In this document: positions 56,467 to 63,076 of the stretch, in pieces
How positions within the stretch are numbered: the first letter of the stretch is position 1
Layout: each line of letters begins with the position of its first letter
Assembly: GCF_039641995.1 (NCBI RefSeq)
Contig: NZ_CP087714.1
Span: forward strand, 1,678,328 to 1,742,327
DNA: 64,000 bases
Source of the DNA: Geoglobus acetivorans
GTDB taxonomy: Archaea > Halobacteriota > Archaeoglobi > Archaeoglobales > Archaeoglobaceae
Reading direction: 5' to 3'
Notes under the pieces: generated by a model
Seen by the model: the letters and a program-made list of their open reading frames with translations, nothing else
Told to the model about the DNA's origin: nothing
Databases searched by the model: none
Made by a program: the position numbers and the translations under genes

Positions 56467-56775
56467 ATGATTGCGCAGTACGGATATAGGGACGGTTCCG
56501 GTACGTACTACATAAGCATTGACACTGACCTGTGCGATGGCTGTGCTGACCTTGAAACCCCGAAATGCATCGAAGTCTGCCCGTCCGGAGTTTTCGAGGT
56601 TGGAGAGGATGAGATTGATCCCTTCAGGGATGAACCTGTGGCGAAGGTTAGGGAGGATCACAGAAACAAGATCAGGTTCAGCTGCGCCCCATGCAAACCC
56701 GCTTCGGGCTGGGAGATTGAGAAGCTGGCATGTGTTTCCTCATGTCCCAAGAATGCGATAAATCACTCCTGGTGA
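56467..56775 (+). CDS. 2[4Fe-4S] ferredoxin of the benzoyl-CoA reductase cluster
   Basis: A 102-residue ferredoxin with eight cysteines in two clusters: C23-x2-C26-x7-C34-x3-C38-P and C73-x2-C76-x12-C89-x3-C93-P. The long insert between the second and third cysteines is like Allochromatium-type ferredoxins of aromatic degraders, which have very low potentials and donate electrons to benzoyl-CoA reductase. It has its own promoter with an inverted repeat and probably a leaderless message, and is followed by a small Cys-rich gene six bases later. Confidence 0.88.
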   Translation: MIAQYGYRDGSGTYYISIDTDLCDGCADLETPKCIEVCPSGVFEVGEDEIDPFRDEPVAKVREDHRNKIRFSCAPCKPASGWEIEKLACVSSCPKNAINHSW

Positions 56776-57711: not shown

Positions 57712-57753
57712 ATTTGTGGCAGTTGATAATCTTACAGGTGAGGTGGTTGAGTG

Positions 57754-58935
57754 ATGACTACGTCTGTCGATGATATGCCCCAGATGAAGAAATTCAGGGA
57801 ATGGTTCGAAAACAGGCACGAATATGCGAAGAAGTGGAAGGAAAAAACAGGTGGCAGGGTCGTCGGCTACTACTGCACCTACGTACCTGAAGAGATACTG
57901 TACGCGGCAGAAATCCTCCCCGTGAGAGTTCTCGGATCACATGAGCCGGAGAGCATAACCAGGCCATATCTTCACGATATGTACTGTCCGTTCTGCCATG
58001 ACACTCTCGCCCAGGGATTGCAGGGCAGGTACAACTACCTTGACGGTGTTACACTTGCTCAGTCATGCCTCCACATGAGACAGTCGTATTTCAGCTTCGC
58101 AGACAGGGTGCCGAACATTGAATGGAGCTATTATCTGCCGTTTCCCCATGGAGTGAACAACCCTCATGCAGGCGATTTTGCAAAACACGAGTTTGAGAAA
58201 TTCAAGGAATCTGTCGAGGAATGGACTGGCGCAAAAATTTCCGATTCTGATCTTGACAGAGCGATTGAAGTTTACAACAGGAGCAGGGAACTTCTGACAA
58301 AGGTGTTCGAGCTGAGGAAGGCCGAGAATCCCCCCATTACCGGACTGCATGCAATGCTGATTGTCGTGTCTTCACAGGTGGTTGACAAGGAGGAACACAA
58401 CGAGGTTCTGGAGAGCTTCCTGGAGGAGGTTGCCGAAGTTGAACCTGACAGGGAGGTTGGGACGAGGCTGATGCTCATAGGCAGTGAGGATTACGATATC
58501 GAGCTTTTCGAGCTGATCGAGTACGGGATGAGCTACCCTGCAACGTTTGTCTTCGAGGAAAACTGCACGGGTTCGAGGTATTTCTGGGGGGCTGTGGAGA
58601 ATGGTGGAGACAGGATAAAGGCCCTTGCCGAGAGGTACGTTTACAGGGTCCCGTGTCCTGCAAAGGACTGGGCAAGGGGCGACTTCTTTGGAAGGAGGAG
58701 GTTCCAGTTTATTGAGAACGTCATAAAGGAGTGGAACGTTGATGCCGTGATCATCGCCCAGATGAAGTTCTGCGATCCTCACGAGCTTGACATACCCTCT
58801 CTCAGAGACATGCTTGACAGGATGGGTGTCAGACACCTCCATCTCGAGCTTGACCTCACGCAGCCTGTTGGGCAGTTCAGAACGAGAGTCGAGGCCATGA
58901 TTGAGGCCATGGGTGAGGAGGACCTGTTTATTTAG
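57754..58935 (+). CDS. bcrC: Benzoyl-CoA reductase subunit C (2-hydroxyacyl-CoA dehydratase family)
   Basis: A 393-residue subunit of the active-site heterodimer of ATP-dependent benzoyl-CoA reductase. Features are GRVVGYYCTYVPEEILYAAE, then DMYCPFCHDTLAQGL and LAQSCLHMRQSY, which contain cysteines likely to ligate a [4Fe-4S] cluster, and ARGDFFGRRRF near the C-terminus. The enzyme dearomatises benzoyl-CoA to the dienoyl-CoA with two low-potential electrons and two ATP. AGGTGGT lies six bases before ATG 57754, which is preferred over GTG 57751. It heads the C-B-D-A operon. Length favours BcrC (BzdN) over BcrB. Confidence 0.9.
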   Translation: MTTSVDDMPQMKKFREWFENRHEYAKKWKEKTGGRVVGYYCTYVPEEILYAAEILPVRVLGSHEPESITRPYLHDMYCPFCHDTLAQGLQGRYNYLDGVTLAQSCLHMRQSYFSFADRVPNIEWSYYLPFPHGVNNPHAGDFAKHEFEKFKESVEEWTGAKISDSDLDRAIEVYNRSRELLTKVFELRKAENPPITGLHAMLIVVSSQVVDKEEHNEVLESFLEEVAEVEPDREVGTRLMLIGSEDYDIELFELIEYGMSYPATFVFEENCTGSRYFWGAVENGGDRIKALAERYVYRVPCPAKDWARGDFFGRRRFQFIENVIKEWNVDAVIIAQMKFCDPHELDIPSLRDMLDRMGVRHLHLELDLTQPVGQFRTRVEAMIEAMGEEDLFI

Positions 58936-58946
58936 AGGTGGTGAGT

Positions 58947-60278
58947 ATGGGAGTCAAGGTTAGGCCTTTTGAATGCTGGGATGATTTCAAGAAGTACAGA
59001 ATGGAGTATTATAGGAATTATCTGGAAGCCAAGGAGAATGGCAGCATCAGGTGGGCAGGTTCAGCATGGGCGTTTGATCCGGTTCCGGCGGGGCTGGGAG
59101 AGGACGTTTATCCGCTCACCGGCGAACCCTACGGCGCCACGGCTGCGTTTTTCAGGGACTTCTCCATGAGGGCTTTGGAAACCATCGAGAGGAAGGGTGC
59201 TGCAAGAGACCTCTGCGGGTACATGAGGAACTACTGGGGCAGCGTGGCGATGGACAAATATCTGCTTGCCGACGGTGCCGAAATTGAGCCGTTCCCGAAA
59301 CCGGACTTCAACTTCACGATTCACATCTGTTGCACTCATGCAAAATGGTACCACTATGCTGCCGAGCTTGAGGGGGGCGTGCCGACATACGCTGTCGACA
59401 TCTCGGTTGGGCCGGGCTACCTGCTGAATGACAAGAAAATAGAATACGTGGTGAGGCAGCTCGAGGATGCGATTCAGTGGATGGAGAAGGTTACGGGCAG
59501 GGAGTACGATGACGAACTCCTGATTAGGGCTGTTGAGAATGAGGCGAGATCGATGACCCTGTGGTCGAAGATCTGCAAGCTGAACCAGAACACCCCCGCA
59601 CCGATGGAAGAGAAGTCGATGTTCTCGTTCTACGTCATGACTCTGCTCAGGAGGAGCGATGAGAAGATTGTGAAGCTGTACGAAAAGCTCTACAAGGAGG
59701 TTGAGAGCAGGGTTAAAAGAGGTATTGGGGCTCTGACCCAGGAGCAGTTCCGCTTTGTTACGGACAACCCGCCACCCTGGCCGTTTCTGAAGGTTTACAG
59801 GTATCTCGAGGAGAATTACGGCGCTGTTTCTGTCGGCTCAATCTACACGTTTGGCCTTGGTGCGGCCTGGCTGGGCATGGATGAGAAGGGTGAGAACTGG
59901 ATCTGGGAGCCGGCTCCAACGCCCGAAGAGGCCGGTTACGAGATCCACGACAGGAGGAGCGCCCTCTGGTGGACGGCGATGTTCAACCTGAAGTACAGAG
60001 CCTCGTGGCAGCACGAGTACTCTCACTGGATAAGGAAACAGGAGACGTACCAGATGGTGAAGGACTGGAAGGCGGATGCCATCATAATGCACCTCAACAG
60101 GGGATGCGAGCTCTGGAACATGTCCACTCTTGAGGTGAGAGATTATCTCGTCAGGAATGGTGTCTCAGTTGCGACATACGAAGGAAACATGGCTGATCCG
60201 AGAGAATTTGACGAGGCGAGGACGTTCAACGTCATAGACTCGTTCATGCAGAGTCTGGGAATTGAAAAGCTAACTTAA
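58947..60278 (+). CDS. bcrB: Benzoyl-CoA reductase subunit B
   Basis: A 443-residue protein of the 2-hydroxyacyl-CoA dehydratase family, partner of subunit C and likely substrate-binding subunit. PNFTIHICCTHAKWYHYA-like sequence (CCTHAKWYHYAAELEGG) holds the cluster cysteine, and YTFGLGAAWLGMDEKGENWI and HLNRGCELW are family blocks. ATG 58947 follows GAGGTGG; the frame is open to GTG 58938. The gene begins 12 bases after the bcrC stop. Length and motifs match BcrB/BzdO. Confidence 0.9.
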   Translation: MGVKVRPFECWDDFKKYRMEYYRNYLEAKENGSIRWAGSAWAFDPVPAGLGEDVYPLTGEPYGATAAFFRDFSMRALETIERKGAARDLCGYMRNYWGSVAMDKYLLADGAEIEPFPKPDFNFTIHICCTHAKWYHYAAELEGGVPTYAVDISVGPGYLLNDKKIEYVVRQLEDAIQWMEKVTGREYDDELLIRAVENEARSMTLWSKICKLNQNTPAPMEEKSMFSFYVMTLLRRSDEKIVKLYEKLYKEVESRVKRGIGALTQEQFRFVTDNPPPWPFLKVYRYLEENYGAVSVGSIYTFGLGAAWLGMDEKGENWIWEPAPTPEEAGYEIHDRRSALWWTAMFNLKYRASWQHEYSHWIRKQETYQMVKDWKADAIIMHLNRGCELWNMSTLEVRDYLVRNGVSVATYEGNMADPREFDEARTFNVIDSFMQSLGIEKLT

Positions 60279-60301
60279 ATATTTTTGAGGGGTGGTTGAA
60301 G

Positions 60302-61084
60302 ATGGTTGTTGCGGGTATCGATGTGGGAAGCAAGATGGCAAAAGTCGTTATTATGGATGGGGATAGGAACATACTCTCCTACGTCATGGCGCGAACCGGC
60401 ACAGACCATGGAAAAACCTCTGAGGAAGTTCTGAATGAGGCACTTGAGAAGGCAGGACTGAAGAGAGAGGATCTGGAAAAAATTGTTGCCACAGGTTTTG
60501 GCAAGATCTCCGTGCCCTTTGCGGATGACGAGGTTACGCAGGTGATTGCCGCAGGAAAGGGCGCCTACTTCGTAAGGCCTTCAGCAAGGACGGTGATTGA
60601 GGTTGGTGCTGAAGAGAGCAGGGCAATAAGTCTTGACGAAAACGGCAACGTCAAGGATTTTGCTCTTGCAGACAAATGCGCCGCCGGAGCCGGTTCATTT
60701 GTTGATGCGATGATAAGGTATCTCGAAGTCACTCCCGAGGAGTTCGGTCAGCTTGCTCTCAAGGCAACAAGGGCAATCCCGATGAACGCTCAGTGTGTGG
60801 TCTTTGCGGAATCCGAGGTGGTTTCACTGCTGCACTCCAACGTCCCGAAGGCCGAGATTTCGAGGGCAATACACGACGCCATAGCTGACAGGGTCATCGC
60901 GATAGCCAGGAGGCTCGATATAAGGGATGATGTTCTGTTGATAGGCGGTCTTGCCAACGACATCGGATTCATCGAGTCCATGAAGAGGGAGCTTGGAAAG
61001 GATGTTTACGTTCCCGAGGATTATCCTCCGGAGCTTGTTCCCGCAATAGGGGCGGCTCTTTCTGCAGTTCAGGGGGTGAGATGA
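60302..61084 (+). CDS. bcrD: Benzoyl-CoA reductase ATPase subunit D
   Basis: A 260-residue ASKHA-fold ATPase of the activator type. It has AGIDVGSKMAKVVIMDG at the phosphate-1 loop, EVGAEESRAI where the A-type subunit has MGGQDLKAI, and the cluster cysteines in KCAAGAGSF and AQCVVFAESEV. Two such subunits share one [4Fe-4S] cluster and use ATP to drive electrons to the active site. The GA rather than GGQD motif makes it the D (BzdQ-like) subunit. ATG 60302 follows GAGGGGTGG; the frame opens six bases earlier at TTG. Confidence 0.87.
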   Translation: MVVAGIDVGSKMAKVVIMDGDRNILSYVMARTGTDHGKTSEEVLNEALEKAGLKREDLEKIVATGFGKISVPFADDEVTQVIAAGKGAYFVRPSARTVIEVGAEESRAISLDENGNVKDFALADKCAAGAGSFVDAMIRYLEVTPEEFGQLALKATRAIPMNAQCVVFAESEVVSLLHSNVPKAEISRAIHDAIADRVIAIARRLDIRDDVLLIGGLANDIGFIESMKRELGKDVYVPEDYPPELVPAIGAALSAVQGVR

Positions 61085-61966
61085 ATGGTTAGCGTTCAGG
61101 AGAGCGAATACTGGAGATGGCCAGAAACCGTCTGGGTGGACGAATCAAGGAACTGGCAGGATGCAGATGTGATAAGCTGCGGTATTGATCTCGGCTCGGT
61201 CAGCACCCAGGCAGTGATAATGGCCGATGGTGAACTTTACGCTTACGCCAGCATGAGAACCGGGACGAGCAGCAGTGCCAGCTCTGAAAAGGCACTCAAT
61301 GCAGTCCTTGAAAAAATCGGGGATATGAGCAGAGAGGATATCCACTACATTGTCGGTACGGGCTATGGAAGGGTGAGCGTTCCCTTTGCGAACAAAACGA
61401 TCACCGAGATCGCATGCCATGGAAGAGGTGCGGTGTACGTCTACGGCAACACCGTAAGGACCGTTCTCGACATGGGCGGTCAGGATCTGAAGGCCATAAA
61501 GATCGACAGCAGGGGCAAGGTGATAAACTTCCTGATGAACGACAAGTGTGCAGCCGGAACGGGAAGGGGCATCGAGGTGGTCTGTGATCTGCTCTCCGTT
61601 CCCATAACCGAAGTCGGTGACATGTCCCTGAAGGTTGAAGAGGAGCCCGAGCCTGTGAGCACAACGTGCGTCGTCTTTGCAAAGTCGGAGATCCTGGGAC
61701 TTATAAGGAAGGGCTGGAACAGGGAAATGATACTCGCTGCGTTCTTCAATGCTGTGTCGAGCAGGGTTGTGGAGCTTCTTGAGAGAGTGGGAGTTGAGGC
61801 AGACTTTGCAATCACAGGCGGAATTTCGAAGAACGTCGGGGTTGTCAGGAGGATTGAGATCAAGCTGAACATGAAGGCACTCGAGCCGAAGGTCGATCCT
61901 CAGCTCGCAGGAGCAATCGGTGCAGCGCTTTTCGCAAGAGCGCTCTACATCAAATCCAAAAAATAA
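61085..61966 (+). CDS. bcrA: Benzoyl-CoA reductase ATPase subunit A
   Basis: A 293-residue ASKHA ATPase. CGIDLGSVSTQAVIMADG forms the phosphate-1 loop, VLDMGGQDLKAIKID is the A-type signature, and KCAAGTGRGIEV and TTCVVFAKSEI give the bridging [4Fe-4S] cysteines. It starts directly after the bcrD stop (TGAATG) with GGGGGTGA upstream. At 293 residues it resembles BzdP of Azoarcus rather than the longer BcrA of Thauera. An N-terminal extension of about 25 residues (with WRWPETVWVDESRNW) precedes the fold. Confidence 0.88.
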   Translation: MVSVQESEYWRWPETVWVDESRNWQDADVISCGIDLGSVSTQAVIMADGELYAYASMRTGTSSSASSEKALNAVLEKIGDMSREDIHYIVGTGYGRVSVPFANKTITEIACHGRGAVYVYGNTVRTVLDMGGQDLKAIKIDSRGKVINFLMNDKCAAGTGRGIEVVCDLLSVPITEVGDMSLKVEEEPEPVSTTCVVFAKSEILGLIRKGWNREMILAAFFNAVSSRVVELLERVGVEADFAITGGISKNVGVVRRIEIKLNMKALEPKVDPQLAGAIGAALFARALYIKSKK

Positions 61967-61987
61967 TATTTTTTCGGGAGGTGCATG

Positions 61988-63076
61988 ATGGGGGAGCTAC
62001 GCATAAGGATTGACGGCAGAGAGGTATCATGCGAATCCGGAAAATACCTCATCGAGATAGCTCTTGAGAACGGCATCTACATCCCAAACCTCTGTTATCA
62101 TCCCAACATTTCGCCTGCTACACGTTTCGAAGGTGCTGAAAAGGTTTTCAGAGGTAGTGAGATTTTTGAGGGTAATGCGGGCCACTACGATGGCTGCGGG
62201 ATATGTGTTGTGGAGGTTAACGGAAAACCGGTCAATTCGTGCGAATACGTTCCTCAGGGTGGGGAGGATGTTGTAACCGACAGCGATTCCCTCAGAGAGG
62301 AGAGGCAGAGGAGGCTTGCGGAAATTCTTGCCAATCATCCGCACGTCTGCATAACCTGTGAGTACAGGCACGGCTGCGACAGGATTCAGTGCAGCTTCGG
62401 AAACCCGGTTGAGGAGAGGTGCTGTGATCTGTTTCCTGTTTGCGAATTGAGACACCTCGCCGAGTATGTGGGAGTAGCAGACCACACGCCAAAATACGTT
62501 TTCAGGGACCTGCCCGTTGTGGAGGAAAAGCTTTACCGGTGGAACTGGAACTACTGCATAAACTGCACCAGATGCGTGAGGGCCTGTCAGGAAATCAGGG
62601 AAGCCGGGGCTTTGAGCTTCACCGTCATTGATGGTGGAGTGTTGGTGGGCAGAACCGCTGAGAGCGATACCCAGTCAGGGTGCAAGTTCTGCGGGGTGTG
62701 TGTTGAGGTGTGTCCCACCGGCACCGTCAGGGATCTGAAGGGCAGGCAGAAGAACAGGTGGAGAGAATCCATATCGGCCAAAATGCTTGCACCCCTGCAT
62801 GAGGCGATCCCGCTGAGTGAAGAAAACGTTGAAGATGTCCCGGAAAAGGCCGGAGTTTTCAGGCTTTTCAACGAGTCGATGGAAATCGTTTACATAAAGG
62901 GGACGGAGAACCTGAAAGAAGAACTTATGAACGAGCTTGGAAAGGCCGCATTTTTCGATTATGTTGAGGACGAGATGTACACGATGAAGGAGAGCGAGAT
63001 GATTCAGGAGTACCTCCAGAAACACGGGACAATGCCGCCCATGAATGACGAGGAGGATGACCTTTTCGACATCTGA
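61988..63076 (+). CDS. NuoG-like iron-sulfur protein with extra C-terminal domain
   Basis: A 362-residue protein (ATG 61988 has GGGAGGTG at better spacing than ATG 61985). The N-terminus is a plant-type [2Fe-2S] domain with about 30 extra residues between its first cysteine (NLCYHPNISP) and GCGICVVEVNG. Next come a NuoG-type cysteine segment (NHPHVCITCEYRHGC) and two [4Fe-4S] sites, CINCTRCVRAC and CKFCGVCVEVCP. Residues 287-362 form a separate domain, AGVFRLFNESMEIVYIKGTE with YTMKESEMIQEYLQKHG, that resembles a degenerate GIY-YIG fold. It probably passes electrons toward the ferredoxin or the reductase. Confidence 0.82.
   Translation: MGELRIRIDGREVSCESGKYLIEIALENGIYIPNLCYHPNISPATRFEGAEKVFRGSEIFEGNAGHYDGCGICVVEVNGKPVNSCEYVPQGGEDVVTDSDSLREERQRRLAEILANHPHVCITCEYRHGCDRIQCSFGNPVEERCCDLFPVCELRHLAEYVGVADHTPKYVFRDLPVVEEKLYRWNWNYCINCTRCVRACQEIREAGALSFTVIDGGVLVGRTAESDTQSGCKFCGVCVEVCPTGTVRDLKGRQKNRWRESISAKMLAPLHEAIPLSEENVEDVPEKAGVFRLFNESMEIVYIKGTENLKEELMNELGKAAFFDYVEDEMYTMKESEMIQEYLQKHGTMPPMNDEEDDLFDI

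Follow-up and report, generated by a model that had tools for sequence, protein, structure and literature searches.

Genes and features of the locus

The window analysed here is a 64,000-nucleotide stretch of the genome of Geoglobus acetivorans (contig NZ_CP087714.1 of NCBI RefSeq assembly GCF_039641995.1, positions 1,678,328 to 1,742,327, forward strand). Close to its end it contains a ferredoxin gene, a four-gene set that NCBIfam models predict to be a bzd-type class I benzoyl-CoA reductase, and the gene of an iron-sulfur protein with an unusual C-terminal tail:

56467..56775, + strand: 2[4Fe-4S] ferredoxin, 102 aa
57117..57647, + strand: conserved 176-aa protein upstream of bcrC, between ferredoxin and bcrC
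57751..58935, + strand: BcrC/BzdN-like reductase subunit (TIGR03190 BzdN, 395 bits, below the cut-off of 453.8)
58938..60278, + strand: BcrB/BzdO reductase subunit (TIGR03191 BzdO, 467.7 bits, above the cut-off of 448.6)
60296..61084, + strand: BcrD/BzdP-like activase subunit (TIGR00241, 228 bits, over the cut-off)
61085..61966, + strand: BcrA/BzdQ activase subunit (TIGR03192 BzdQ, 414.7 bits, above the cut-off of 380.2)
61985..63076, + strand: short-form BzdV-like electron-transfer protein, 362-363 aa (ATG at 61985 or 61988)

BzdN is the best NCBIfam family of the 57751..58935 gene, though the score lies under the curated cut-off. The 102-aa ferredoxin is likely the electron carrier of the reductase; its relatives sit directly between bcrA and the long form of the tail-bearing protein in other genomes. 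The 176-aa protein has no Pfam match, is retained in most short-form operons and is possibly a regulator. The tail-bearing ORF directly follows bcrA/bzdQ, which ends at 61966, and is itself followed by a thiolase gene. About 5 kb downstream, past the window end, lies a second 2-hydroxyacyl-CoA dehydratase/BCR-like trio (L073:11976-15150, - strand), whose members are 27%, 23% and 41% identical to BcrC, BcrB and BcrA.

The stop codon of the tail-bearing ORF ends at 63076, and the coding part for 362 residues spans 61988-63073. Orthologues with 60-93% identity occur in eight other Archaeoglobi genomes. The protein is organised as follows:

61988..62284, + strand: NuoG-like [2Fe-2S] domain, residues 1-99 (Cys36, 70, 73, 85; Pfam Fer2_4, E 1.4e-10)
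62285..62443, + strand: His/Cys [4Fe-4S] region, residues 100-152 (His117, Cys121, 124, then 130 or 152)
62534..62737, + strand: 2[4Fe-4S] ferredoxin-like domain, residues 183-250 (Fer4_9 and Fer4_Nqo3)
62738..62809, + strand: linker, residues 251-274 (low confidence, pLDDT <50 at 261-271)
62810..63046, + strand: GIY-YIG (UvrC-like) domain with a degenerate active site, residues 275-353
63047..63073, + strand: acidic C-terminal end, residues 354-362 (conserved D/E-E-L-D-D-L-F/Y; low pLDDT)

A NuoG-like iron-sulfur module had been predicted ahead of the tail, and it is clearly present. Pfam places Fer2_4 at residues 4-99 and Fer4_9/Fer4_Nqo3 at residues 187-246, and the PDB chains of NuoG and HydA, as well as formate-dehydrogenase iron-sulfur modules, align with the protein over residues 4-254 only. 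The four [2Fe-2S] cysteines are invariant among 26 homologues, the residues of the His/Cys [4Fe-4S] region are invariant in the alignment of tail-bearing proteins, and the ferredoxin-like domain holds its cysteines at 190, 193, 196 and 200 and at 232, 235, 238 and 242. The front thus shares with NuoG and HydA the arrangement of one [2Fe-2S], one His/Cys [4Fe-4S] and two [4Fe-4S] clusters; it differs from them in a Cys-rich insertion and the GIY-YIG tail, and in the absence of a molybdopterin-like or H-cluster domain. No Pfam match to a molybdopterin-oxidoreductase-like C-terminal part was found in the window protein, and the PDB alignments end near residue 254. The insertion (residues 130-152, 62375-62443) is family-specific, with the extra invariant cysteines C130, C135, C145, C146 and C152, which are kept across the aligned tail-bearing proteins and missing from HydA/NuoG-type controls; it possibly holds an additional cluster.

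Fold and conserved residues of the tail

Compared as a single sequence with NCBIfam, the window tail matched only GIY-YIG proteins (TrsA, UvrC and the DEDD-exonuclease/GIY-YIG family; E 0.001-0.07), and in Pfam it gave a weak match to DUF7508. The Pfam GIY-YIG model PF01541 fails to detect the tail in the window genome. Among 43 homologous tails, 24 matched UvrC TIGR00194 (best 9e-7) and all 43 matched DUF7508 (PF24348; best 1.2e-12). HHalign of the tail profile against UvrC GIY-YIG domains drawn from the same genomes gave 90.8% (E 1.2e-6), comparable to the 87.9% obtained for UvrC against small stand-alone GIY-YIG proteins, while ten column shuffles used as controls reached at most 17%.

An AlphaFold2 model of the tail, built from a 43-row alignment (mean pLDDT 84, pTM 0.75), shows a sheet plus flanking helices in the GIY-YIG order. 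The top 10 PDB matches of this model in Foldseek are all GIY-YIG domains, including the UvrC structures of Bacillus caldotenax and Thermotoga, and from the eleventh match onward the probability falls to 0.33. The best by E-value is UvrC 1yd6 (E 4.8e-4, prob 1.00), and the highest TM-score among the listed matches is that of the GrxS16 N-domain (2lwf, TMq 0.66). Profile matches in the PDB to pyrin, AAR2, SHP2 and an E8 peptide were set aside as low-complexity or partial and unconfirmed by structure. Because the profile matches, the AlphaFold2 model and Foldseek agree, the tail is almost certainly a GIY-YIG domain of the UvrC kind. This bears out the original prediction of a GIY-YIG-like C-terminal domain: the profiles, HHalign with its shuffled controls, the predicted structure and the structure search all lead there. 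Profile search and structure prediction, which had been proposed as its check, returned a confident GIY-YIG assignment and no different fold. The extent first given was residues 287-362; better bounds for the domain are about 275-353, and residues 354-362 belong to the acidic DELDDLF-like end.

The window domain carries the motifs GVF (291), YIKG (302-305) and RESELIQ (334-340). When the 43 tails are aligned to UvrC, the catalytic Arg column (312) holds Glu, Ala, Leu, Asp, Gly and other residues, and Arg in none of them. The Tyr of the GIY motif (position 291) is Tyr in 17/43 and that of the YIG motif (position 302) in 25/43, and the GK pair of the UvrC YVGK motif reads KG (or xG). The Glu of the long helix aligns to an invariant Gln340 or to 341 (Glu in 13/43), a one-residue shift deciding between them. 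Nuclease activity is unlikely, as judged from these residues, because the catalytic Arg column never holds Arg. The signature had already been called degenerate from the window sequence, and the variable Tyr columns together with the lost Arg confirm this across the family.

What the 43 tails do conserve lies on the turn and long helix, E-x-M-[YF]-T-[MK]-R-E-S-E-L-[IL]-Q, together with G347, P350 and an acidic end of the form D/E-E-L-D-D-L-F or E-E-D-L-Y, in which Leu359 is invariant. None of the 43 tails has a conserved Cys. The dN/dS values of 0.038 for the tail and 0.055 for the front indicate purifying selection on both modules.

Distribution and architectures

We searched GTDB genomes with a profile of the tail only, so that the query contained no bcr sequence. 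It returned 42 loci: Archaeoglobi, Thermoplasmata, Hecatellales, Bathyarchaeia and other Thermoproteota among the archaea, and Chloroflexota, Planctomycetota, Kapaibacteria and Desulfobacterota-like genomes among the bacteria. Unlike the tail alignment, a single sequence used as query against GTDB contigs gave no matches, and the tail was not found in the viral contigs searched. Two small proteins matched the tail profile weakly, a Bathyarchaeote protein with a GIY-YIG-like N-terminus and DUF5752 (L083:2042-2812) and a 94-aa stand-alone protein of an Archaeoglobi genome (L119:2282-2563); neither has bcr genes nearby in the stretches read.

Two architectures were found. Most relatives are long forms, typically about 840 aa within a range of about 740-880 aa, in which the iron-sulfur front is followed by a GltD-like domain (Fer4_20 + Pyr_redox_2) and the tail; one of them (L055) is split by a frameshift. 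The short form of about 362 aa consists of front and tail without the GltD-like NAD(P)H-flavin module; the window protein is of this kind, as are its relatives in most Archaeoglobi that have bcr genes. In the window protein the GltD-like FAD/NAD(P)H domain of the long relatives is absent, and the linker at residues 251-274 marks the site where it is held in them. A Desulfobacterota short form of 394 aa (L116:4395-5576, - strand) adjoins a ferredoxin gene and bcrA. All versions have in common the iron-sulfur front and the GIY-YIG tail, and no intact long or short form was found without the tail.

Had the tail belonged to NuoG-like proteins at large, the fusion would have been commonplace; instead, it is missing from NuoG, HydA and other 2Fe-2S proteins encoded at the loci retrieved. 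Common GltD proteins were rejected as tail carriers, as the GltD-type matches on plasmids stop short of the tail, and in the closest fusion of NuoG-N and GltD (Acetoanaerobium, L151) there is a molybdopterin domain and no tail. The fusion had been called unusual for such an operon, but it is not special to this one: it recurs beside bzd-type reductases in archaea and bacteria, usually with a GltD-like NAD(P)H module between front and tail.

Linkage to benzoyl-CoA reductase genes

Of 35 testable loci from the tail-only search, 34 have bcrA/bzdQ upstream on the same strand at a distance of 0-2.4 kb, usually with nothing or only a ferredoxin gene in between; one further locus (L064) adjoins an N gap and was left out of the 35. 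The association also holds genome by genome. Among 59 Archaeoglobi genomes the tail (>130 bits) occurs in 15, the same 15 that have an intact bcrB, defined as a benzoyl-CoA-type BcrB of >700 bits (Fisher p 4e-13). One more Archaeoglobi genome has a 165-aa BcrB fragment and is without the tail. Geoglobus ahangari has been reported to be without benzoate genes (PMC4600277), and the genome that is apparently of this species (G006) has neither tail nor BcrB. In Chloroflexota, tail and BcrB were found in exactly the same 2 of 301 genomes. The 297 Desulfobacterota genomes include 8 with both, 3 with the tail only and 1 with BcrB only (8/11 tail genomes, p 1e-12); the BcrB search scored no more than five candidates in some genomes, where BcrB absences are not firm. 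Two of these four discordant Desulfobacterota genomes have bcrD-bcrA and a long form with bcrC/bcrB not nearby, and in one discordant genome the contig ends inside bcrA. The tail is thus a conserved hallmark of proteins encoded beside class I (bzd-type) reductases in archaea and bacteria.

The fourth discordant genome (G821) has a long form (L110) with no adjoining bcr genes. It lies between AOR-type genes and a set of Fe-S, HdrD-like and HdrA-like genes, the AOR-type/HdrA-like cluster being on the opposite strand, and the layout of this neighbourhood resembles that of class II (bam). The long form at L063 follows an HdrA-like gene.

Short and long forms beside the same reductase

GltD was searched for in nine short-form genomes at a single strict threshold of E<=1e-30, with a query that picks up the Archaeoglobus long forms at 37% identity, and no match was found. 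In the BcrA tree, the operons of the long-form Archaeoglobus (L031-L034) nest within the short-form Archaeoglobi, beside a short-form Archaeoglobus (100/98). In the tree of the front module, the Archaeoglobi short forms make up one clade that is distant from the Archaeoglobus long forms. Another version of the protein has therefore taken over the place next to the reductase, and the tail is borne by both versions. As all long forms found here carry the tail, the swap speaks for linkage to the reductase and not for independent recruitment of the tail. With an AU p of 0.5, the data are compatible with the short form having arisen once, so repeated loss of the GltD-like module is not claimed, despite the bacterial short form at L116.

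In the operons L031-L034, genes of NuoE-like (151 aa) and NuoF-like (588 aa) proteins stand between bcrA and the long form. With them, a class I benzoyl-CoA reductase would be served by a complex linked to both NADH and NAD(P)H.

Comparison with known systems

BzdV of the Azoarcus bzd operon has been described as a putative NADPH:ferredoxin oxidoreductase (PMC5658619, PMC5736913). Like the window protein it is encoded in the operon of a bzd-type class I reductase, and the long forms show the NuoG-like front and GltD-like FAD/NAD(P) module expected from its description; the window protein differs in being without the GltD-like module. With the N-terminal GIY-YIG domain of UvrC (1yd6, 1ycz), the best structural match by E-value, the tail shares the strand-turn-strand-helix order GV(F/Y)...YI.G..NL. 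It differs from UvrC in the loss of the catalytic Arg, in an unreliable catalytic Glu and in the reading KG for GK, and it is fused behind an iron-sulfur module, outside a nuclease context. By fold and profile, then, the tail is a GIY-YIG domain, and by its residues it is predicted not to be an active nuclease.

The nearest precedent for the fusion is plant GrxS16 (2lwf), in which a GIY-YIG domain is likewise joined to an iron-sulfur/redox protein, a glutaredoxin; there, the GIY-YIG domain is N-terminal, is an active nuclease and is tied to a disulfide switch (PMC5890173). DUF7508, matched by every tail, comprises small haloarchaeal proteins. Full-strength matches in the phylum search, whose controls included Haloferax volcanii, belonged to other families, and no benzoyl-CoA reductase linkage was seen for them here. 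We found no description of GIY-YIG together with benzoyl-CoA reductase in the open literature, and none of the Pfam and NCBIfam models encountered covers the combination of iron-sulfur front and GIY-YIG tail.

Proposed role of the tail

Electrons enter class I benzoyl-CoA reductase through the BcrAD activase. The enzyme draws them from low-potential ferredoxin (PMC5658619, PMC6500515). We propose that the window gene encodes a short form of the BzdV-type electron-input protein for the ATP-dependent class I (bzd-type) reductase. Its iron-sulfur front, with motifs for one [2Fe-2S], one His/Cys [4Fe-4S] and two [4Fe-4S] clusters, would serve as a wire, and the GIY-YIG tail as a non-catalytic plug that holds this wire on the BcrAD activase or on a dedicated ferredoxin, the RESELIQ helix and the acidic C-terminus being the parts that would grip the partner. 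Low-potential electrons would then reach the ATP-driven step. In the long form they would enter from NAD(P)H via the GltD-like flavin; the short form would depend on a different source, the likeliest being a 2-oxoacid:ferredoxin oxidoreductase or ferredoxin itself. The former has been suggested as a candidate donor in Ferroglobus placidus (PMC6500515), and one of the loci (L036) has IorAB-like genes downstream.

The gene linkage and the lost catalytic residues make it somewhat probable that the tail is such a catalytically dead docking domain. The original prediction had offered nucleotide binding or docking of the ferredoxin or the reductase, and docking appears to suit the gene linkage better. 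The activase side is favoured because bcrD-bcrA have the tail protein beside them also at loci where bcrC-bcrB do not adjoin. The long form of G821 without bcr genes beside it and that at L063 after an HdrA-like gene stand against docking on the reductase.

Alternatively, the tail could chiefly serve the structure or dimerisation of the BzdV-type protein and make no contact with a partner, which would agree with its presence in every intact long and short form. We regard this as unlikely, since other NuoG-N modules and GltD proteins have no such tail and it occurs almost only alongside the reductase. Slightly less likely still is a regulatory domain that senses ATP/ADP, a CoA ester or redox state and gates electron flow unless substrate is present. 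The obligate linkage to an ATP-dependent enzyme and the redox cross-regulation between GIY-YIG and iron-sulfur parts in GrxS16 (PMC5890173) lend it some appeal, but no nucleotide-binding motif was seen in the tail and conservation is strongest in one helix and the acidic end. A disulfide switch of the GrxS16 type is excluded because no Cys is conserved in the tail.

A working GIY-YIG nuclease, or a DNA/RNA-binding domain, is very improbable: the UvrC-like fold and the DNA cutting by such a domain in GrxS16 (PMC5890173) speak for it, and are set against the lost Arg, the variable Tyr columns, a Glu position that is Gln or, in 13/43, Glu, the blindness of PF01541 to the tail in the window genome and the catabolic nature of the operon. 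A chance likeness of some unrelated small alpha/beta domain, for which the weak profile scores of the single sequence might argue, is scarcely credible when family profiles, HHalign with shuffles and structure search converge solely on GIY-YIG.

Returning to docking, a broader reading can be put forward more tentatively: this catalytically dead and hitherto undescribed branch of the GIY-YIG superfamily may be an obligate docking part of the electron-input protein of class I reductases in archaea and bacteria. Together with the iron-sulfur front it would stay in place where the NAD(P)H module is missing, so that various electron sources would use the same plug.

Conclusions

Benzoyl-CoA reductases of the ATP-dependent class break aromaticity without oxygen, and the delivery of electrons to them is poorly known. 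A domain of 90 residues that tracks the reductase genome by genome offers a handle on the binding partners of BzdV-type proteins and a sequence tag for finding the electron-input protein in genomes. A fold that is known mainly for cutting DNA probably has here a role other than that of a nuclease. Finally, to judge from the short form, the electron supply to the reductase in Archaeoglobi such as Ferroglobus and Geoglobus may work without the usual GltD-like module.
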